DNA of 42,023 bases from a virus, in IMG/VR virus record IMGVR_UViG_3300002835_000391, positions 1-42,023 of that record. One strand, 5' to 3'. The position numbers and the translations under genes are program-made. The notes beneath the pieces are model-generated. The model worked only from the letters and a program-made list of their open reading frames with translations. It had not been told where the DNA came from and did not search any database. Of this stretch, positions 1,374 through 36,471 are shown in pieces (within the stretch, counting starts at the first letter, position 1; each line of letters begins with the position of its first letter).

Positions 1374-3009
1374 CGAGCCGCTGGGGGATATGACCCAGCA
1401 CCAGCTCGGCCAGCTCAAGGACGTTCAGGTCGCTCTCACGGAGCGGCGGCTGGAGGCCCTGCGGCTGTATGAGCCCATGCCTCACCAGGACGAGTTCCAT
1501 CGCTGCACGGCGTCGGAGCGCATCGTTCTGGGGGGTAACCGCGGCGGCAAGACGCTGGCGGTTGCAGTGGAAGCCGCCCGCGCGGCTACGGGCCAGGATC
1601 CCTACGGCAAGTACCCAAAGGAAGGCGGCAACCTCGCCATCATCGGCCGGAACTGGCCCCACATTGGATTGGTAATTTATCCCATCCTCCTAAAAGCCGG
1701 GGCGTTTCGGATCATCAAGGACGAGAAGACTGGCCAATGGAGATCGATCCGCCAGGGCGATGACAAGAGCAAGAGCAAGCCCGCGCCTCCGCTGATCCCG
1801 CCGCGGCTGGTGAAGGATGTGTCTTGGGTGCTGAAGAACGCTGGGTATCTCAACAAGCTGGAACTCACCAACGGCTGGACGATCTGGTGCTTCTCGTCGG
1901 AGGGAGAGCCTCCGCAAGGCTATCAGGCCGACCTTATTTGGATTGACGAGGACGTAACGAATGAGGCTTTCGTCGGTGAGTCTCAAGCGCGGCTCGCAGA
2001 TCGCAAGGGCCGTTTTGTGTGGTCGGCCATGCCGTGGAGCCGGAATGATGCGCTCTTGGGTCTATGCGAGCGGGCCGACCGCGCAGTGGAGGAGGGGCAA
2101 GAACTTCCAATCATCAAGAAGTTCACGTTCCGGTTTTTGGATAACGCTTTTATCGATTCGGAAGAAAAGCGAAAGAACATAGAGCGGTGGAGTGCGCTGG
2201 GGGCCGACGAGGTCCGAATGCGTGCCGAGGGTGAGTTCACCACCGAATCCACGCTCATGTACCCGACGTTCAATCGCAGCGTGCATATCCTGCCGCGGGC
2301 GGAGCTAAAGGACGGGATCATCCCGCCGGACTGGACACGGTACGTGGCGATTGACCCGGGCCACGCAGTCATGGCCACCATCTTCGCCGCCGTGCCACCG
2401 CATGAGCGGTTCATGCTGATCTACGACGAACTGTACATCCGGAACTGCAACGCGCTGATCTGGGGCGAGCAGTTCTATGAGAAGGTCCGCGAGCAGCACA
2501 TCCACGCAGCGATCATGGATATGCACGGCGGCCTCCTCCGCGACCTGGGCTCGGGCCGACTGCCGCATGAGCTGTATTCGGAAGAACTGAAGAAGCGGAA
2601 GATCCGCTTCACCATCGGCGGGCACGGATTCATTCCTGGCTCCGATGACATCCCCGCCAGAACGGCCATCGTCCGGCAGCTCCTGCACATCCAAGGCGAC
2701 GGGACAACCCGGCTCAAGATTCTGGAGGGCTCCTGCCCCAACCTGCTGCGGGAGCTGAAGCGGTATCGCAAGAAGACAACGACGGTCAACGGGCAGGTGT
2801 TCGTCACCGACCAGCCGCAGACCCGAGGCGAGGTCCACGCTTGTCAGTCGCTTGAGTACCTCTGTGCCTACGAACCCAAGTACCACGCCCCACCGCGGAC
2901 TTACGGTCCCGATCCTTGGTGGGTGAAGTGGCTGTCGGAGCGCAAGCGCCGTCAGCGGGAGTCCACCGACCCCCACATCAACCTCGGGCCCAGCAGGAGA
3001 TTGCCGTGA
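1321..3009 (+). CDS. terL: Terminase large subunit (ATPase-nuclease)
   Basis: 562 residues from GTG 1321. The packaging ATPase has a Walker A GGNRGGKT at residues 71-78 and a Walker B LIWIDED with D209-E210 as the catalytic pair. The C-terminal RNase-H-like nuclease shows its first acidic strand at YVAIDPG (D345) and a second at IMDMHGG (D400). The enzyme pumps DNA into the prohead through the portal and cuts the concatemer. Length and motif spacing are normal for phage large terminases. The order small subunit, large subunit, small unknown, portal is conventional. The stop overlaps the next start (GTGA at 3006-3009), indicating translational coupling. Confidence 0.93.
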   Translation: MANMKKHPRQIQPPQTPDEPLGDMTQHQLGQLKDVQVALTERRLEALRLYEPMPHQDEFHRCTASERIVLGGNRGGKTLAVAVEAARAATGQDPYGKYPKEGGNLAIIGRNWPHIGLVIYPILLKAGAFRIIKDEKTGQWRSIRQGDDKSKSKPAPPLIPPRLVKDVSWVLKNAGYLNKLELTNGWTIWCFSSEGEPPQGYQADLIWIDEDVTNEAFVGESQARLADRKGRFVWSAMPWSRNDALLGLCERADRAVEEGQELPIIKKFTFRFLDNAFIDSEEKRKNIERWSALGADEVRMRAEGEFTTESTLMYPTFNRSVHILPRAELKDGIIPPDWTRYVAIDPGHAVMATIFAAVPPHERFMLIYDELYIRNCNALIWGEQFYEKVREQHIHAAIMDMHGGLLRDLGSGRLPHELYSEELKKRKIRFTIGGHGFIPGSDDIPARTAIVRQLLHIQGDGTTRLKILEGSCPNLLRELKRYRKKTTTVNGQVFVTDQPQTRGEVHACQSLEYLCAYEPKYHAPPRTYGPDPWWVKWLSERKRRQRESTDPHINLGPSRRLP

Positions 3010-3326
3010 GTTCCTACGACATGCCCAAGGCTGACCTGGGCGACATTGTGCTGTTCTACGCCCATGAAGGGGCCACCCCGGTCCCGGCGATTGTGTCCGT
3101 GGTCGCCTCTCGCACGCTCACCCTCTGGGCGATTGCGGGCGAACTGGGCGGCGTGGTGAAGCCCTCGGTCCACCACCTGACCGACCCGGGGGTCAACGAC
3201 TTCCCCGATTGGAAGCGGTATGGCTACTGGGAACACAAGCCCAAGGATCCGACGATCTCCATTCTGAGCGAGAAACTCAGCCTGTTGGACAAGAAAGTGT
3301 CCGCTACAGCCCCGAAAAAGGCTTGA
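3006..3326 (+). CDS. Hypothetical protein between terminase and portal
   Basis: 106 residues. GTG 3006 is chosen because AGGAG stands about 7 nt upstream and the start forms a GTGA overlap with the terminase stop; ATG 3021 is the alternative. The protein has a compact beta-rich N-terminal half (GDIVLFYAHEG, PVPAIVSVVA, LTLWAIAGELGG), then HHLTDPGVNDFPDW and an aromatic stretch, and ends in a helical Lys-rich tail. It resembles small phage proteins that sit beside head genes, but I do not recognise a family. A head-completion or packaging-accessory role is inferred from position only. Confidence 0.6.
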   Translation: MSSYDMPKADLGDIVLFYAHEGATPVPAIVSVVASRTLTLWAIAGELGGVVKPSVHHLTDPGVNDFPDWKRYGYWEHKPKDPTISILSEKLSLLDKKVSATAPKKA

Positions 3327-3353: not shown

Positions 3354-5345
3354 ATGGCTGACGAGAACCCGCTGCGCCCCATTTGCAAGCGCTGGCTTGA
3401 GTGCATCAAGCAGGCCGAGAAGTACAAGAAGCCTTTCTCCGAGGACGCCGCGGAAGCCATGGGGTTCTTTGCCGGTGACCCCGACTTTATGTGGAAGGAT
3501 TCCTACGCTCGCGGTGAGCGGGGATACATCAAGGGCATGGACCCGCCCCCGTTCCGCATGATGGTCAACCGTGTGTGGGAGGCTGTTCGTCTCTTCACGG
3601 CAGTCATCCACCACCGCAACCCGACGCGGACGGTGTCGCCCAAGGACTACCCCATCCTGGGCCCGCAGCTTCTGGGAATCTTCCCCCAGCCGCCAGTCCC
3701 GCAGATGGGGCCGGATGGCCTGCCTGTCATGGGCCCAGACGGCCAGCCGGTGATGATGCCCGATCCGGGGATGATGCAGTACCAGCAGATGCTCCAGCAG
3801 CAGCAGATGATGCTGGAGCGCCGCAAGGTGGTTGCCAAGCTCTTGGAGGACTACCTCAACTACACGCCCAACGAACTCAACCTCAAGCAGCACTCACGCA
3901 AGGTGGTGGAGGAGGCGTTTATCAAGGGCGCGGGTGTGTGGTGGCATGAGCTGTACACACCTCCCGGCGGCACGGTGAAGATGGCCGGGTCGTTCTACGA
4001 CACCATCGACAATCTTGTCTGGGATCCGGACGCCGACGAGTTTGAGGACATCCGCTGGGCCGCGCGCCGCCGATGCCAGCCCATCGACGAAGTGGCCGCC
4101 AAGTTCGGGGTGTCTCGGGAAGAGCTGAAGGGCGGTATCGAATCCTACTCCCGGCAAGCCGATGTCTCCGACCGCGGCTATCAGCATGAGAAGAAGACCG
4201 GGAAGACGAACGACCTGATCGTCTACTGGGAGATTTATTCCAAGACCGGCTTTGGCGACAGGCTCAAGGACGCCGGCCAAGACCTGCGGGGCAAGTTCGA
4301 CGCCCTCGGGCCCAACTGCTACATCGTCGTTGCCGAGGGTGTGGATTTCCCGCTCAACATTCCTCCGGCGATGATGCAGGAGGAGGTCGATGAGTCCGGC
4401 ATCCCCCCTACCCTGTTCATGGCTGCCCAGTGGCCGATCCCATTCTGGGCCGAGCCGAGCGGCTGGCCGTTCACGCCGCTGGTGTGGCACGGCAAGCCGG
4501 GCTACTCCTGGCCGATCTCGCTGATCCGCCCTGGCATCGGGGAATTGCGATTCATCAACTGGGCGATGTCGTTCCTCGCCACCCGCATTGCCACCTCCAG
4601 CCAGACGCTCATCGGTGTGGCCAAGCATGCCGACCCGGATCTCAAGGCCAAGATCCTGGAGAAGAACGAGGGCGGGTTCAACATCGTTGAAATCTCCGAG
4701 GCTGTCGGGCGGTCGGTGAACGATGTGATCTCGGTCTTCCAGATGCCTGGGGTCACCCAGGACATGTACCAGATCATTGCCGAGGTGACGAACCTGTTCG
4801 ACCGCCGCGTCGGTTTGACCGAGTTAATTTACGGCATGACCAGGGCGAGTTTCAGAAGTGCCGCTGAAGCCGCCGTGAAGTCGGAGCAGATCAGCGTCCG
4901 GCCTGACGATTACGCTTCGATTCTGGAGGACGCGCTGTCCGAGGTCGCTCGCAAGGAAGCGCTCCTCGCCCGCTGGATGGTCTACCCGCAGGACGTTGCT
5001 CCCATTCTGGGACCGATGGCTGCCCAAGCGTGGCAGTTGCATGTGCAGGGCGAAGACCCTGAGTCGGTGGTCCGTGAATACTCCTACCGCGTGGAGGCGG
5101 GTTCGGCGCGCAAACCGAATATCGCCACCAAGGTGGAGAACATGAACAACGCCATGCAGATAATGATGCCCGTGGCGCAGGGCCTGATGCAGGCCGGTCA
5201 GCCGCAAATCTTCAACGCCATGTTGGAGGACTGGGGTGAGGTGATGAACGTGGACATCAGCCGGTACATGGTCCCGCCTCCCCCGCCGCCTCCTCCCGGC
5301 CCGCCACCTGAAGCCCCACCCGAAGCCCCTCCCCAAGGCCAATAG
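3354..5345 (+). CDS. Portal protein
   Basis: 663 residues with a clear GTAGGAG site upstream. Size, position after the terminase, and the helical core with many Trp, Arg and acidic residues fit the large portal proteins of short-tailed phages, which form the dodecameric DNA gate at one head vertex. Typical-looking stretches are FRMMVNRVWEAVRLF, NLVWDPDADEFEDIRWAARR and the late TRASFRSAAEAAVKSEQ helix that precedes the tunnel region. A Met/Gln/Pro-rich insert lies near residues 110-160. The C-terminus ends in a proline-rich tail of about 22 residues, probably a flexible extension. The only oddity is the absence of recognisable scaffold and capsid genes right after it. Confidence 0.8.
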   Translation: MADENPLRPICKRWLECIKQAEKYKKPFSEDAAEAMGFFAGDPDFMWKDSYARGERGYIKGMDPPPFRMMVNRVWEAVRLFTAVIHHRNPTRTVSPKDYPILGPQLLGIFPQPPVPQMGPDGLPVMGPDGQPVMMPDPGMMQYQQMLQQQQMMLERRKVVAKLLEDYLNYTPNELNLKQHSRKVVEEAFIKGAGVWWHELYTPPGGTVKMAGSFYDTIDNLVWDPDADEFEDIRWAARRRCQPIDEVAAKFGVSREELKGGIESYSRQADVSDRGYQHEKKTGKTNDLIVYWEIYSKTGFGDRLKDAGQDLRGKFDALGPNCYIVVAEGVDFPLNIPPAMMQEEVDESGIPPTLFMAAQWPIPFWAEPSGWPFTPLVWHGKPGYSWPISLIRPGIGELRFINWAMSFLATRIATSSQTLIGVAKHADPDLKAKILEKNEGGFNIVEISEAVGRSVNDVISVFQMPGVTQDMYQIIAEVTNLFDRRVGLTELIYGMTRASFRSAAEAAVKSEQISVRPDDYASILEDALSEVARKEALLARWMVYPQDVAPILGPMAAQAWQLHVQGEDPESVVREYSYRVEAGSARKPNIATKVENMNNAMQIMMPVAQGLMQAGQPQIFNAMLEDWGEVMNVDISRYMVPPPPPPPPGPPPEAPPEAPPQGQ

Positions 5346-5351
5346 TCGTAT

Positions 5352-5882
5352 ATGACATACCCTCCTGAAGTCGAAGCCGCTGGCGAATGGGCCAAGAGCC
5401 GCTATGAGAAAGCCCTGCCCTACGGGGAGAAGTGGGCCGCTATGGTCGCCCTTCAGCAGCCGCCTGGAACCAAGGGCAGCGACCGGGCGTTTCTCCAGGG
5501 ACGGCAGAACAACGAGCAGTTGGACGAGATGCCGAAGCGTCAGGCGCAGTACGTCGCCCGTGAGGCCCGGCAGGCAGGGATCAACATCTCGGGGAAATAC
5601 TATTGCGCCGGGATAGCCGACAAGCGCGGCTGGAAAGACCCCGCAGCGTGGGTCAGCAGCAACGACGATGTTCTCAGCGTGGCCCGCAAGCGGCGCCTGC
5701 ACGTTACGGGAAGCGTGAACTACGACCCCGGCGAAGCCCCGCCGAAGCGCGTGGTGCTGTCGGAGAGCATCATCAACGACGAACTCCGCAAGGAGAAACG
5801 CAAGAACCCCAACGCCAAGGTCGGGGAGCTGCGAGAGAAGATCATTGACAAGCACGCATACAAGGTGAAGGGAAGACTATGA
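5352..5882 (+). CDS. Hypothetical virion-block protein
   Basis: 176 residues, starting 6 nt after the portal stop and ending in an ATGA overlap with the next gene. It is charged and mostly helical at both ends; the middle has GINISGKYYCAGIADKRGW, AAWVSSNDDVLSVARKR and LHVTGSVNYD, giving a possible small mixed alpha/beta domain. The slot after the portal is where scaffold or capsid genes usually sit, but nothing in the composition identifies it as either. A head-assembly accessory role is possible. Confidence 0.6.
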   Translation: MTYPPEVEAAGEWAKSRYEKALPYGEKWAAMVALQQPPGTKGSDRAFLQGRQNNEQLDEMPKRQAQYVAREARQAGINISGKYYCAGIADKRGWKDPAAWVSSNDDVLSVARKRRLHVTGSVNYDPGEAPPKRVVLSESIINDELRKEKRKNPNAKVGELREKIIDKHAYKVKGRL

Positions 5883-29272: not shown

Positions 29273-29907
29273 ACGCCGACATCCCATTCTTCCGGTGCTG
29301 GGTCCGGCTCCCATACATCTCTCGCCAGCAGGGCGTGGAGGAGGGATACGCCTTTGCCGTCCAGTCCTACCCCGGGCGGGCGCTGGCGTTCCATGTGATG
29401 CTCAAGTCGGGGGCTCACTACCGTGGCGTCCCGATCCACGCCTTGGCGTTACAACCTGACGCTCCCGTAAGGATGGTCGGTGAGCTGCAATTATGGGACT
29501 GCTTTACAGCGCGGCCGATAGTCCATTGTTACAACTACCTGCGGGACCATCAGGCCAACTGCCGCCTGAGATACTCCACCGAGGCCGGGGTGTATCTCTT
29601 TACTGTGGACTGGCTCCCCGATGACTCTGGGCCGGGGTTCACCCACCTCCCCGAGCAAAACAAATGTGCCCACGTTCTGGCCCTGGATGACGGGAATCTG
29701 TGCGCCCTGCCCACCAACCGGATCGCTTGGCTGGACGGGTACTTTATCGGCCGGAACCCCGACCCCCGGTCCCGCCAGTACACCGTCCAGGAGGAGGTCT
29801 GGCAGGCCGAGGATGCCGGGTTCGATGCCAGCCTGGATACCAATTACATCTATGAGGCCCAGGATGGCCCTGGGGCGGCCGATCCGGGGGCCGACCACCC
29901 AGTTTAG
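29269..29907 (+). CDS. Hypothetical protein
   Basis: 212 residues starting in an ATGA overlap. The sequence is a mixed globular protein with many aromatics: FRCWVRLPYISRQQG, YAFAVQSYPGRALAFHVML, GELQLWDCFTARPIVHCYN, VYLFTVDWLPDD, LDGYFIGRNPDPRSRQYTV. The beta-rich pattern recalls phage proteins of unknown function conserved next to recombination genes. No motif was recognised. The acidic C-terminus may be flexible. Confidence 0.6.
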   Translation: MNADIPFFRCWVRLPYISRQQGVEEGYAFAVQSYPGRALAFHVMLKSGAHYRGVPIHALALQPDAPVRMVGELQLWDCFTARPIVHCYNYLRDHQANCRLRYSTEAGVYLFTVDWLPDDSGPGFTHLPEQNKCAHVLALDDGNLCALPTNRIAWLDGYFIGRNPDPRSRQYTVQEEVWQAEDAGFDASLDTNYIYEAQDGPGAADPGADHPV

Positions 29908-29967
29908 ACCCCCAGATTCACCACCCCACAGCGGTCAAATTTGGGCCTCTGGCGGGCAATAGTAAAT

Positions 29968-30183
29968 ATGGCGCAGAAGCGGCGGCGGGATTACGACTAC
30001 ATCGCTAGACTGCGGGCGGCACACCGCTCGGCAGAGCAGATGAGTCTGTACGCCGGTCGGCTGCTGGAACAAATCGACTCCCTCCAAAGGGACTTGCAGG
30101 CCAGGGACGCAGTGATCTCGGCGCTGAAGTCGGAGCTGGAGAGGCGATCCGCCGCACAGGACTCAGATTGCTTTCGCGCGTAG
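29968..30183 (+). CDS. Coiled-coil protein
   Basis: 71 residues. A basic N-terminus (MAQKRRRDYDYIARLRAAHR) precedes a long amphipathic helix (AGRLLEQIDSLQRDLQAR to LKSELERR), suggesting a dimer that may contact nucleic acid. ATG 29968 follows the GGGCAATAGT motif rather than a normal ribosome site. The last gene before the structured RNA region. Confidence 0.55.
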   Translation: MAQKRRRDYDYIARLRAAHRSAEQMSLYAGRLLEQIDSLQRDLQARDAVISALKSELERRSAAQDSDCFRA

Positions 30184-30189
30184 ACTGCC

Positions 30190-30536
30190 AGCGACAGGAG
30201 ATGTTTGGATCGGCGGCGCGGGTTGGGATTAACCTTCTGGCGCGCCTCCGTATTACCTCGCAACCAGAAGGGATTGTGCTGCAAGCGAGGGGGCCAGCCG
30301 CAAGCGACAGGGCTCAAGCACACGGGTGACCGGATGCACCCGATAAGCAGGTCGCAACTCAGTAGCCTCCGGTGGCATGCTGGGCGCCTTCAGACCGTCC
30401 TAACGAACTGCGGACAAGGCGGCGGCCAACCCTAGCCACGGCTGGGGATTGGTCGCCGTGCGCCTTGACCGAGCCTTCAAACCGCGAACATGGGCTGCCG
30501 CATCCGAGACATGAAGTTGCTTGAGGTTTGATTAGA
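30190..30536 (+). ncRNA. Structured RNA candidate upstream of an HNH gene
   Basis: This stretch has no credible gene on either strand and is full of paired segments. By eye: CCTTCTGG 30233-30240 with CCAGAAGG 30264-30271, interlocked with CCTCGC 30256-30261 and GCGAGG 30285-30290 (a pseudoknot); GCGAC 30304-30308 with GTCGC 30351-30355 enclosing the hairpin CGGGTG/CACCCG (30323-30342); CAAGGCG 30415-30421 with CGCCTTG 30461-30467, enclosing a long imperfect hairpin 30422-30456; and TCAAACC 30477-30483 with GGTTTGA 30525-30531. Size and complexity are those of a ribozyme, HEARO/omega-type RNA or other mobile structured RNA. The group I P7 consensus was looked for and not found. The class is unknown. 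Confidence 0.6.
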
Positions 30537-30616
30537 AGAAGGAGAAACTCTGGACTGGTGAATGGAACAGCCGTACACTAGCGGCACTACCTGGAGGGGT
30601 AGATCGGTGATCACGG

Positions 30617-31117
30617 ATGATCGTCATTGCTACGAAGCGGTGCAGCGGCAGGCACGGATGCGGCTTGGTTCTGCCGGTGAGCGATTTCTCCGTGCGCAAG
30701 GACGGGAGGCTCCACACGTATTGCCGAGCCTGTGCGTGCCAGTCCGCTCGCGAGTGGAGCGTAGGCAATCCGGATCGCCGCGCCGCTACGGAGCGGGAAT
30801 GGCGGCAAAACAATCCGCTTGCCGCAAAGGCGTACAGCCTTGTTGGTTCCGCCATCCAGTCAGGCCCGTCCGACATCGACGTTGGCTGGGTGCTGGAGCG
30901 GCTGGAGCGTGGCGTCTGCGAGTTTTCTGGCGTGCCGTTCGTCTACGAAAAGCGGCACCCATTCATGCCGTCGATTGACCGGATCGATCCCGCGCAGCCC
31001 GGCCACATGAAAGACAACTGCCGCGTGATTCTTTGGGGGCTGAACGGCTTTAAGGGCGCGGCCACCGAGGAGGTGTTTCGGGAATGCCTAGAGAAGGTGC
31101 ATGCCGCGTTTAACTAA
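30617..31117 (+). CDS. Zinc-finger HNH endonuclease
   Basis: 166 residues. An in-frame stop at 30608-30610 fixes ATG 30617 as the first start; only GGTGA 6 nt upstream can serve as ribosome site. N-terminal zinc knuckle: C9, C15, C36, C39. The C-terminal HNH-like domain shows C101 in CEFSGVPF, SIDRIDPAQPGH (119-130), N134 and N143 in WGLNGFKG, the pattern of small phage HNH proteins. No RuvC domain is present, so it is not an IscB. Probably a homing-type nicking or cutting enzyme. It immediately follows the structured RNA, and the two may form one mobile unit. Confidence 0.7.
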   Translation: MIVIATKRCSGRHGCGLVLPVSDFSVRKDGRLHTYCRACACQSAREWSVGNPDRRAATEREWRQNNPLAAKAYSLVGSAIQSGPSDIDVGWVLERLERGVCEFSGVPFVYEKRHPFMPSIDRIDPAQPGHMKDNCRVILWGLNGFKGAATEEVFRECLEKVHAAFN

Positions 31118-31502
31118 AGATGACAAGCTCCTGTTTCAGGAGTTCGCCGCGGAGTTTCGATCCTGCGCCATCTGCTGGTGGCCGGAGTCGGACATGCGGC
31201 GGCGGATGGAGATCCACCACATCTGCGGCGGCTCGGCCCGCAAGCATGACCGCCGAAATCTTTTAACAACCTGTGCGCGCTGCCATGGGTTGTACCACAA
31301 CGGCAAGATCGACGGCAACTTTCCGGACATCACCAAGGGGATGATCCTCACAGCCAAGAAGGAATCCGATCCCGATCACTACGACCCGGAGTTCCTCGCA
31401 TGGTTGCGCCATCGCAAGCATCTGGGATACGACCCGCAGCCCATCGATCCGTACTACCTAGAGGAGCGCGAGCGCAACGTCGGCCAATGTCGGAAGCCAT
31501 GA
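31101..31502 (+). CDS. HNH endonuclease
   Basis: 133 residues, overlapping the preceding HNH gene by 17 nt. Zinc and catalytic residues are clear: C22-x2-C25, H39-H40 in MEIHHICGGS, N53 in DRRNLLT, C58-x2-C61, H62 and H66. This is a compact classical HNH domain with a 60-residue tail rich in Tyr, Pro and Arg. Phage enzymes of this type take part in packaging, DNA repair or homing. It is distinct in sequence from its neighbour, so the pair is not a duplication. Confidence 0.78.
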   Translation: MPRLTKDDKLLFQEFAAEFRSCAICWWPESDMRRRMEIHHICGGSARKHDRRNLLTTCARCHGLYHNGKIDGNFPDITKGMILTAKKESDPDHYDPEFLAWLRHRKHLGYDPQPIDPYYLEERERNVGQCRKP

Positions 31503-33031: not shown

Positions 33032-33341
33032 CTGGCTGCTGAAGCACCGCGAGCTGCTGCTGGCCGTGGTGGCCGTGGCGAAGAAGTTCGACCGGGACGG
33101 CACCTACATCTCCCAGTGGGAGGTGGTGGACGAGATCGCCCGGCTGGTGATCCCGGTCTTTGAGCGGGAGGGCGTGGATGCCGCCAGCGTGCTGGCCTAC
33201 GACTGGGATGAAACCGACGAGGTGTCGGCATTCGCCCTCGGTGCCGAGGTCCAGGCTATGGGCGTGGACTGGCAGGCCGTGATCCAGATCGTCCTTCCGA
33301 TTCTGATCGCCATTCTCAAGGCGCTGTCGCCCGATGAGTGA
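33012..33341 (+). CDS. Hypothetical protein with C-terminal hydrophobic helix
   Basis: 109 residues. ATG 33012 chosen for GAGG 9 nt upstream. Helical, with a hydrophobic N-terminal segment (LLLAVVAVAKKF) and the C-terminal VIQIVLPILIAILKAL, which could be a membrane anchor. It overlaps the subtilase by 8 nt. Opening the membrane/protease block, it may be a holin-like or anchoring protein. Confidence 0.5.
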   Translation: MNVKVISWLLKHRELLLAVVAVAKKFDRDGTYISQWEVVDEIARLVIPVFEREGVDAASVLAYDWDETDEVSAFALGAEVQAMGVDWQAVIQIVLPILIAILKALSPDE

Positions 33342-34278
33342 CTTCGTCCACCTCCCTCCGTACCGGGTTGATCTCCAGCATGTACCGCATTCGGTACAGG
33401 AGGGGGTGGATTGGGCTGTCGCCAGCTACGGGATCCCCGGTCTGTGGAAGCACAGCAAGGGCGAGGGCGTGACGGTGGCGGTGATCGACTCGGGAGTATC
33501 GCCACACTCCGCGCTCAAGGATGTGGTGGTGGACTACCGCAACTTCTCTTCGGACTCCAATGTCTACGACACGCTCGGTCACGGGACGCACGTAGCGGGC
33601 GTCATCGGTGCCCGGTCTGGTCTGGCAAAGGGCATCGCCCCAGGCGCCAAGCTGATCAGCATGAAGGTGCTGGGTCACTCGGGCATGGGCAGCAACGAAG
33701 CGGTCGCAACTGCGATCACCCATGCGGGCGAGGCCAAGGTGGATCTGGTGTGCATGTCGCTCGGCTGTTCCCGGCCGGACGCCAGGGTGCATGACGCGAT
33801 CCGGCACATCACCTCCAAGGGCGTGATCGTTGTGTGCGCGGCCGGGAATGATGGCGGGGCGGTCAACTATCCCGCGGCATTCACCGAGACGATTGCGGTG
33901 GGTGCGGTGGACAAGGATGGCAACGTCTGCCAGTTCTCCTCTCGGGGCAAGGAGATTGTGGTTGCCGCTCCTGGTCAGGACATCACCAGCACGTGGCTCG
34001 CGGATGGATACGCGACCATCTCCGGAACCAGCATGTCCGCGCCGTTCGTCACCGGAGTCCTGGCGTTGTGGGTATCCGACGCCAAGAAGACGGGCCAGAA
34101 GGTCAGCGGTGCCGCCGCAGTCAAAGCCCTCAGTGAGACTTGCCGAGACGTTGGGCAGCAGGGCAGGGATCCGGAGTACGGCTGGGGTCTGATGGACCCG
34201 CACAAACTCTTGAACTACACCGCCACCGCCAGCATTGAGGGCGTGACCATCTTCATCCCCGGGGCCCGCATCCTATGA
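33334..34278 (+). CDS. Subtilisin-like serine protease (S8)
   Basis: 314 residues. The S8 triad is complete: D52 in VAVIDSGV, H83 in GHGTHVAGVIGA, S233 in SGTSMSAPFVTG, with the oxyanion Asn N172 in AAGNDGG. The core starts after a ~35-residue N-terminal stretch; there is no signal peptide and no I9-type propeptide of normal length, so secretion would need another route (virion, lysis or a holin). Phage-encoded subtilases are rare. Neighbours are membrane and secreted proteins and a papain-like protease, suggesting a shared task outside the cytoplasm or in virion maturation. Confidence 0.9.
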   Translation: MSDFVHLPPYRVDLQHVPHSVQEGVDWAVASYGIPGLWKHSKGEGVTVAVIDSGVSPHSALKDVVVDYRNFSSDSNVYDTLGHGTHVAGVIGARSGLAKGIAPGAKLISMKVLGHSGMGSNEAVATAITHAGEAKVDLVCMSLGCSRPDARVHDAIRHITSKGVIVVCAAGNDGGAVNYPAAFTETIAVGAVDKDGNVCQFSSRGKEIVVAAPGQDITSTWLADGYATISGTSMSAPFVTGVLALWVSDAKKTGQKVSGAAAVKALSETCRDVGQQGRDPEYGWGLMDPHKLLNYTATASIEGVTIFIPGARIL

Positions 34279-35528: not shown

Positions 35529-36471
35529 CGACTTTGACAATCCGATGCAGTTGCTCATGGCCTATGAGGATGGGCTCACGGGCTACATCGATAGCCCGCG
35601 AGATCGCGGCTTGTTCTCGGAGTCGCAGAAGCAGCCCGTGTATTCGGAGCCCAATATTGCTGGCAGCGGCCAGGGGCAGCGGGCACTTCTATGGCAGTAC
35701 ACGCAGGCGTTAGACCCGCTGTCGTTTACCGAGCGCCAGACCACTGGAGATTGTACGAGCCACTGTTCGCGGAACGCGCGAGACACAAGCCGTGCGACCC
35801 AGATTTGCGTGGAGCGACGGCCCGAAGATTTCATTGTGCGCGGGGCGACTGAGCCTACCTACGGTGCGCGTGGGCATGCTGGCGAGGGTATGTCTCCTGC
35901 CCGCGCCGCCATGTTTGAGAATGAGGTGGGCTTCCTGATCCGTAAGAAATATGACCCCGTCGATCTTTCGGTGTACAAGTCCACCATCGGCACAAACTGG
36001 GGTGGGCGGGGCGTGCCCGAGGATGTCAAGGCACTGTGTCGGCAGAACAAAGTAGGCATCATCCGCCAGCTCACGCGCATCCAAGACGTAGTGGACGCGC
36101 TCTTCAACGGGTACTGCGTGGCGTCTGGGCAGTTTGCGGCGTGGTCGCCAACTCCGAACAAGGATCACATTCACCCGCGCACTGGTGGCGGATGGAGTCA
36201 CGCGATGGCTACGGTCGGCATGGACTTCACCCGTAAGTTCTGGCCTTTCGATGTGTTCTTCATCGCAAATAGCTGGGGCCCGTGGTGTCAAGCGCCAAAG
36301 GAATGGCCAAGCGACTACCCCAAGTATCTGCCCGGCATGATTGTGACGAAGGCAGAGGACTGGGAGGTGTGCGTGCGCGGCGGTGACTGCTACGCATATG
36401 GATCAGTCGATGGTTTCCCTCCACAGAAGCTGCCCGATTACGGAACCGTAGGACTCCTGCGTCATGGCTGA
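35521..36471 (+). CDS. Papain-like cysteine protease (C1 fold)
   Basis: 316 residues from GTG 35521. The papain order is present: Q73 and C78 in QTTGDCTSHC (oxyanion Gln and nucleophile), H227 in GGWSHAMATVGMDF, N250 in FFIANSWGPW. No signal peptide. A ~70-residue N-terminal part may be a pro- or adaptor region. Two cysteines, C78 and C82, stand close; C78 fits the Q-x4-C spacing. It overlaps the endonuclease VII end by 8 nt. Phage C1-like proteins are sometimes virion or lysis proteins; here it pairs with a subtilase nearby. Confidence 0.78.
   Translation: MPDDFDNPMQLLMAYEDGLTGYIDSPRDRGLFSESQKQPVYSEPNIAGSGQGQRALLWQYTQALDPLSFTERQTTGDCTSHCSRNARDTSRATQICVERRPEDFIVRGATEPTYGARGHAGEGMSPARAAMFENEVGFLIRKKYDPVDLSVYKSTIGTNWGGRGVPEDVKALCRQNKVGIIRQLTRIQDVVDALFNGYCVASGQFAAWSPTPNKDHIHPRTGGGWSHAMATVGMDFTRKFWPFDVFFIANSWGPWCQAPKEWPSDYPKYLPGMIVTKAEDWEVCVRGGDCYAYGSVDGFPPQKLPDYGTVGLLRHG

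Follow-up and report, generated by a model that had tools for sequence, protein, structure and literature searches.

Some large ornate RNAs are phage-associated. For RNA II of plasmid ColE1, invasion of the DNA by the RNA behind the polymerase has been proposed; an internal segment of this RNA resembles the non-template strand close to the RNA 3′ end, and a G-rich loop pairs with a C-rich template. The DNA analysed here is a 42,023-nucleotide (nt) virus record (IMGVR_UViG_3300002835_000391, the whole of which is called the window), in which a structured RNA, designated type I, occupies positions 30204–30494 of the plus strand. It is ~290 nt long and belongs to a new family of non-coding RNAs in phages, and one of its segments (R1) recurs near its 3′ end (R2). 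In related uncultured phages, two further RNA classes take the same place. The type I RNA resembles HEARO/omega RNA with IscB in being a structured RNA upstream of an HNH gene, and the IS110 bridge RNA in an RNA loop that matches the element's own end DNA. GOLLD, ROOL and other large ornate RNAs are likewise large, structured and non-coding (PMC12286853), but the type I RNA is smaller, has no Rfam match and belongs to one locus with three exchangeable classes. A review (PMC5043065) describes ColE1 as replicating without a plasmid-encoded initiator: its transcript forms a persistent hybrid, which RNase H cuts and Pol I extends. The type I RNA shares with RNA II that it is untranslated, and the likeness of R1 to R2 could give such a hybrid; it differs in having no Rfam match, in belonging to a phage rather than a plasmid, and in the lack of a GC-skew switch.

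An initial annotation of the window, made from the sequence alone, had placed a large pseudoknotted RNA in a gene-free gap directly 5′ of a 166-residue HNH open reading frame (ORF). The gap is present, a small ORF ending at 30183 and the 166-residue ORF beginning at 30617. The RNA does lie inside the unit drawn at 30190–31117, but the conserved unit is shorter, at about 30204–30494: the type I covariance model matched 30196–30497 with 253.7 bits (the window being among the model's own sequences), and nhmmer matched 30200–30494. Folded singly, the segment 30184–30560 gave a z score of −1.07, with 16 of 100 shuffles folding equally well, which is not beyond chance, so the evidence for the RNA is comparative. 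Across 23 aligned sequences, 98.3% of 1,631 cells were paired, and 25 of 71 base pairs had changed on both sides, compared with 11.1 in shuffles and at most 7 in slid structures (96 cells with such changes vs 23.1 in shuffles). When two further relatives (loci L149 and L220) were added, 97.4% of 1,772 cells were paired in 25 sequences, with two-sided changes in 29 of 71 pairs (11.8 in shuffles, at most 9 in slid structures) and in 112 cells (26.7 in shuffles). The RNA is placed on the plus strand because of its G-U pairs, one of which occurs in 25 of 25 sequences. This is almost certainly a real conserved RNA, and the earlier observation is thereby confirmed and strengthened, whereas the interpretation attached to it proved half right and is only partly supported.

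The type I fold comprises 12 helices including pseudoknots, several of them interlocked. Helix 1 (30214–30220 with 30241–30247; four of seven pairs changed on both sides) holds between its strands the 5′ side of helix 2 (30236–30240 with 30264–30268; two of five), and helix 2 interlocks with both helix 1 and the pseudoknot helix 3 (30257–30261 with 30285–30289; two of five), one pair of which changed on both sides in 12 of 25 sequences. Helices 2 and 3 lie within two pairings read beforehand from the window alone, CCTTCTGG (30233–30240) with CCAGAAGG (30264–30271) and CCTCGC (30256–30261) with GCGAGG (30285–30290), and both pairings are present and interlocked as proposed. Helix 4 (30275–30280 with 30317–30322) is 100% paired with two-sided changes in all six pairs. 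Helix 5 (30292–30295 with 30311–30314; two of four) forms a pseudoknot with helix 6 (30304–30308 with 30351–30355), in which no two-sided change was found in 23 sequences and L220 supplied one compensatory pair. The loops of helix 7 (30323–30327 with 30338–30342; two of five) and of the helix 9 hairpin (30359–30383; four of eight, 93% paired) touch in a loop-loop contact, helix 8 (30329–30332 with 30370–30373; three of four). The helix 10 hairpin (30397–30415) is 98% paired and is the sole helix without a two-sided change in 25 sequences; its loop and 3′ side form most of R1 (30406–30419). Between R1 and R2, the latter (30480–30493) lying 3′-most in the conserved unit, stands a long hairpin (30418–30464) of helix 11 (one of three pairs changed on both sides) and helix 12 (98.4% paired, two of 15). 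The closing stem CAAGGCG (30415–30421) with CGCCTTG (30461–30467) proposed for this hairpin is present, and its outer part (GGC/GCC) covaries in one of three pairs, but these outer three pairs have a competing partner further 5′ that is 86% paired.

Relatives were reached by several routes. A search with a neighbouring 133-residue HNH gene led to L010, in which the RNA is 77% identical over 271 bases. Scans of viral contigs for exact matches to conserved patterns retrieved 12, 16 and 43 stretches. Forty-two of the 43 hold a type I RNA by covariance model or identical core, the other (L122) being a chance match. Twenty-five distinct cores were grouped over all loci, L122 and the truncated L136 included, and the remaining 23, with the window, were aligned; L122 (a chance 19-base hit), L136 (cut by the contig end) and L109 (partial) were omitted from the type I alignments. 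The covariance model finds all 34 contigs given to it, many of them its own sequences, and it matched L149 at 226 bits and L220 at 199 bits. None of 51 loci (taken from 78) fetched via a neighbouring ferredoxin-like gene matched it, the type I RNA had no counterpart in the phage and plasmid collections, and the 133-residue HNH protein had none in the phage collection. As a side observation, IMGVR 3300049595_001870 (117,778 bases) seemingly contains copies of two different phages, that of the window and, as hit values in common suggest, that of L032/L161, and may be a joined contig.

Rfam includes RNA I, and Rfam searched at E ≤ 10 over 30100–31200 gave no homology to known RNA I/II and only two unrelated matches, both under the gathering score. 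No family matched the window at its gathering score, in agreement with the proposal that the RNA lies outside Rfam. Across ten loci at E ≤ 5, three matches were returned, all under the gathering score: one to Twister-sister, located in L220 beyond the RNA, and one to mir-306 on each strand of the R1-hairpin-R2 segment in L191. No description of this RNA was found in a literature search that left most subscription journals and nearly all preprints outside, which does not show its absence from print. Ten virus records, which may be fragments and which included the window, its near-twin L090 and one more type I lineage, were searched for the known systems. The HEARO model RF02033 matched none at E ≤ 1, and neither did the group I intron model RF00028, as the initial annotation had anticipated for both. 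IscB (NF040563) reached its 175-bit cut-off in none of the ten, with 15–18 bit matches to the HNH part only in five; TnpB/Cas12f-like PF07282 was over its cut-off in none, one 18.7-bit match occurring in the phage of L164; and PF01548 (DEDD_Tnp_IS110) was absent at E ≤ 0.01. The RNA thus differs from HEARO/omega RNA by the lack of an RF02033 match and of an IscB over cut-off, and from the IS110 system by the lack of a DEDD recombinase in the ten records. A short stretch, GATAAG..GTC, resembles the J8/7-P7 region of group I introns; a group I core on this basis was dropped, with RF00028 negative and no room for P4-P6 by eye. From group I introns the RNA differs in the negative RF00028 search, in having no P4-P6-like domain by eye and in lacking exons.

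The 166-residue ORF (30617–31117, plus strand) encodes an endonuclease VII-like zinc/HNH protein (PHROG 1035, E 1.8e-21) with no Pfam family at E ≤ 1. A viral-contig scan for its close relatives returned only three contigs, 99.98–100% identical to the window over 6.2–6.5 kb. In L010 the RNA occurs without this ORF and is followed directly by the next gene, and in L149 a different ORF on the opposite strand stands after the RNA at this place. The RNA is not tied to the 166-residue protein, because relatives carry the RNA without that gene. We hold with great confidence that the type I RNA is independent of it; the ORF is a neighbour in the window's lineage only, outside the RNA system. The initial annotation had suggested that the two may form a mobile unit. 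This reading, or that of a self-splicing intron with its homing nuclease, is supported by the adjacency of RNA and ORF in the window and, by eye, by a similar-looking ORF after a different RNA in L009. Against these stand the RNA without the ORF in L010 and other lineages, a site that is fixed rather than scattered, negative group I and HEARO models, and an RNA between genes with no exons recognised, so that a mobile unit or intron is scarcely credible.

Some observations touch on this position. Endonuclease VII-like zinc/HNH ORFs seem to come right after the RNA in different phages (window 30617–31117 and, by eye, L009 at ~2579–3013 and L030 at ~5090–5530), and the RNA before the similar-looking ORF of L009 is of a different class, type II. 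In L149 (4269–5126, minus strand), the ORF at the spot of the 166-residue ORF has 285 residues and the look of an ADP-ribosyltransferase by eye. A gene at another place on the same contig (L156:6145–6960) has an ART-PolyVal match just under the cut-off (28.9 vs 31.2 bits).

The conserved neighbour of the RNA is the 133-residue HNH gene (31101–31502, plus strand; PF01844, E 2.6e-06), not the 166-residue one. The RNA lies mostly between the same gene kinds, on a fixed side of this gene and not scattered. L029 is 81–85% identical to the window on both flanks and has a different conserved intergenic element in place of type I, and comparison of the gap in relatives gave a type II (L029, L009, L019, L027) and a type III (L015, L017, L021). 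Seventy-five loci were fetched with an alignment of 11 HNH proteins, and classes were assigned with sequence profiles (E ≤ 1e-4) in at most 2.2 kb of DNA preceding the HNH gene; a first assignment covered 67 of the 75 together with the window, L029 and L149, and the final one all 75 and no others. Exactly one class was present in 61 of the 75 loci (type II in 33, type III in 22, type I in 6), no class in 14, and two classes in none; the type II and III counts are not independent, because the hidden Markov models (17 type II and 3 type III sequences) were built from loci whose phages are partly in the counted set. There were no matches on the opposite strand or downstream, and after identical HNH gene sequences were merged, 48 of 58 had an RNA class. 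Many of these contigs are 56–63 kb long. The three RNA classes are exchangeable and mutually exclusive at one locus. The fold of type II has rough support, two stems (at least four pairs, at least two of them changed on both sides) being found on 14 sequences and none in five column-shuffled controls; for type III the analysis extends to an alignment.

Within the sister classes, further pairings were seen by eye. In type III (e.g., L165, L168, L197), a GCYGAG.. segment can pair with the 3′ strand of the last hairpin in competition with its 5′ strand. In type II (e.g., L164:2164–2489), a loop CGACTCC is complementary to an invariant GGAGTCG near R2 in most sequences, a possible switch or pseudoknot. 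In L093 (3765–4457) and L131 (6597–7301), a small HNH and a RusA-like/PDDEXK domain are joined in one gene of 230–234 residues, whereas they are separate genes in the window.

The fixed orientation of the RNA upstream of the same gene would suit a cis-acting control element (attenuator, antiterminator or riboswitch) of the downstream HNH/PDDEXK genes, as would the alternative pairing of the middle strand in the 3′ hairpin. The distance from RNA to HNH gene, however, varies from ~25 nt (L173) to ~970 nt (L149), with the 166-residue ORF between them in the window and an opposite-strand ORF in L149; there is no terminator-like site at the RNA end, and no expression platform was recognised by eye. 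We regard such control as unlikely. A free-standing large non-coding RNA with another role, such as a GOLLD/ROOL-like multimer or an anti-defence RNA whose class exchange reflects an arms race, would be consistent with the size, the pseudoknots, the phage origin and the exchange of whole classes between phages 81–85% alike in the flanks. Still, no Rfam family matched at the gathering score and this reading by itself leaves R1/R2 unexplained, and it appears quite unlikely.

In the 25 type I sequences, the R1 segment recurs 72–76 nt on as R2, the last conserved segment, and changes in one go with changes in the other. When every comparison was given its best offset, the 14 distinct segments had 10.07 of 12 positions in common with their own R2 and 6.91 with other R2s; their own R2 was best, or joint best, for all 14, and the own-R2 sum was reached in none of 20,000 permutations. 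The 13 distinct 12-mer pairs show 25 differences, and at 23 of these R1 has G where R2 has A. For this count, the R1 that best fitted its own R2 was taken; the permutation comparison granted foreign R2s the same choice. The layout recurs with various sequences in 22 of 26 type II loci (26 of the 33, copies left out, with a scoring that favours G-to-A mismatches), where R2 lies 17–25 nt after the invariant GGAGTC. Other repeat sequences in type II loci obey the same G-to-A rule, one of the listings behind this being restricted to G-to-A or exact repeats. An unbiased control on 70 loci, some of them mutual copies, found one-kind G-to-A repeats in 30 loci upstream vs 6 downstream, compared with 3–13 upstream and 3–15 downstream for the other 11 mismatch kinds; exact repeats occurred in 10 loci upstream vs 2 downstream. 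One further R1-like site within two mismatches (at 36150) and no R2-like site were found in the window, and the 55-kb contig of L149 held no further copy of R1 or R2 within two mismatches.

Two segments that drift and remain alike while differing as G vs A would be expected where a single strand with U or T at these positions pairs with both, and the repeat sequences suggest that the simplest such strand would be the one complementary to R2. A partner for R2 inside its own RNA was rejected: duplex energies gave no fixed place for an R2 complement in type I, and type II R2s paired no better with their own RNA than with foreign RNA (−10.84 vs −10.52 kcal/mol, 16 loci). That R1 recognises the strand complementary to R2, G-U wobbles included, has in our estimate a little less than an even chance. 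R1 and R2 might instead be two sites of one drifting RNA- or DNA-binding protein, with the RNA as a scaffold or control element. Concerted change at a spacing of 72–76 nt is what a dimeric or two-site protein would produce, but base pairing accounts better than protein contacts for a G-to-A rule that is nearly one-way, and we are inclined to doubt a protein of this kind.

If R1 recognises DNA at R2, it might act as a guide. A nuclease, perhaps the 133-residue HNH protein, would then be led to nick or cut the R2 DNA, which could start recombination-dependent replication or drive class exchange. A small HNH gene does neighbour all three classes, R1 equals R2 as a guide equals its protospacer, and the HNH part of the IscB model weakly matches the 133-residue protein (20 bits, E 3e-4). 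This match is far from the IscB cut-off, however, and the same weak signal occurs in 10 of 14 control genomes; the loci were fetched via the HNH gene, so plain synteny can explain the adjacency, and 14 of the 75 have the gene with none of the three classes. Moreover, the R1 DNA would be a better target than R2, and the AlphaFold2 model of the HNH protein was unusable (predicted local distance difference test score, pLDDT, 43). Guided nicking or cutting is decidedly improbable on this evidence. Solved structures gave only weak matches for either HNH protein. Improbable as well is the broader notion of a self-aiming RNA system outside CRISPR, IscB/TnpB and IS110, in which R1 would guide the exchangeable structured RNAs, G-T wobbles being built in, to R2 in the phage's own DNA; replication or recombination would start there, the small HNH protein possibly acting as nickase.

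The explanation that best covers the whole, offered tentatively, combines an exchangeable new RNA class with an R1-R2 template hybrid for replication. R1 sits in a hairpin of what would be the nascent RNA. While transcription passes, it may pair with the template DNA strand at R2, forming rG-dT wobbles at positions with G in R1 and A in R2. The RNA 3′ end would thereby be anchored to the DNA in an RNA-DNA hybrid, and host enzymes could use this hybrid to prime or open replication, in the manner of RNA II in plasmid ColE1. R1/R2 reproduce the RNA II arrangement of an internal segment similar to the non-template strand near the 3′ end, being near-identical and not identical. At 42–72 nt from the R2 start, the non-template strand is G-rich and A+T-richer in eight type I loci (skew 0.47). 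Family A polymerase (PF00476) and DnaB (PF03796) were found in none of the ten records at E ≤ 0.01, the records being possibly fragments and other replicases not having been searched.

Several observations weigh against this explanation. Gene starts may account for the G bias after R2, which in 18 type II loci is weak (0.10 at the same offset). A GC-skew switch at the RNA is absent in the window and in the 55-kb relative, the cumulative maxima falling at 36.4 and 51.4 kb, so an origin by GC skew is not supported in these two records, though the test is weak in phages. No sigma-70 promoter-like site was found in 29800–31200. The permutation tests on R1/R2 ignore relatedness, and the remaining two of the 25 type I differences, T-C and A-T, both lie in the window itself. 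No convincing R1/R2 pair was found in four of the 26 type II loci (L172, L189, L194, L213), and type III has no clear pair. Sites within two mismatches also occur elsewhere, one R1-like and one R2-like in L093, both on the minus strand, and one R1-like in L113; L093 and L113 are partial loci. The pairing remains plausible, and the replication role is only a guess; that an R1/R2 hybrid would act as a replication primer is, on this analysis, doubtful.

The RNA locus of these phages lies 5′ of the small HNH gene and close to helicase and recombination genes, and the window encodes a terminase, a portal, exonuclease VIII, a helicase and a RusA-like/PDDEXK nuclease. A probable subtilase-like protease gene (33334–34278) was also seen near the RNA locus, the gene at the same place in L154 matching PF00082. 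As to the host, L149 is a 55-kb phage-like contig within a Pirellulaceae metagenome-assembled genome (MAG). A 19-base pattern matched cellular genomes 13 times, and one match, on this contig, was the real RNA. Within the family of that MAG, two of 241 genomes matched the RNA, namely the MAG itself and one with a 20-bit match taken for chance. The HNH profile at E ≤ 1e-15 matched one of 392 genomes of the phylum and one of 241 of the family, both the same genome. Pirellulaceae as host is therefore a hint and not a finding.

These results contribute an RNA family supported by covariation, together with two sister classes from the same phage locus, all unrecognised by the Rfam copy searched. What is new is the set of RNA classes; the primer model, if true, works like a known kind. 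From the R1/R2 pair and its nearly one-way G-to-A rule follows a sharp prediction, that RNA guides recognition of the phage's own DNA with no known effector. If R1 were a guide, this would be a new RNA-guided mechanism, and if the hybrid were a primer, tailed phages would possess a ColE1-like start of replication.
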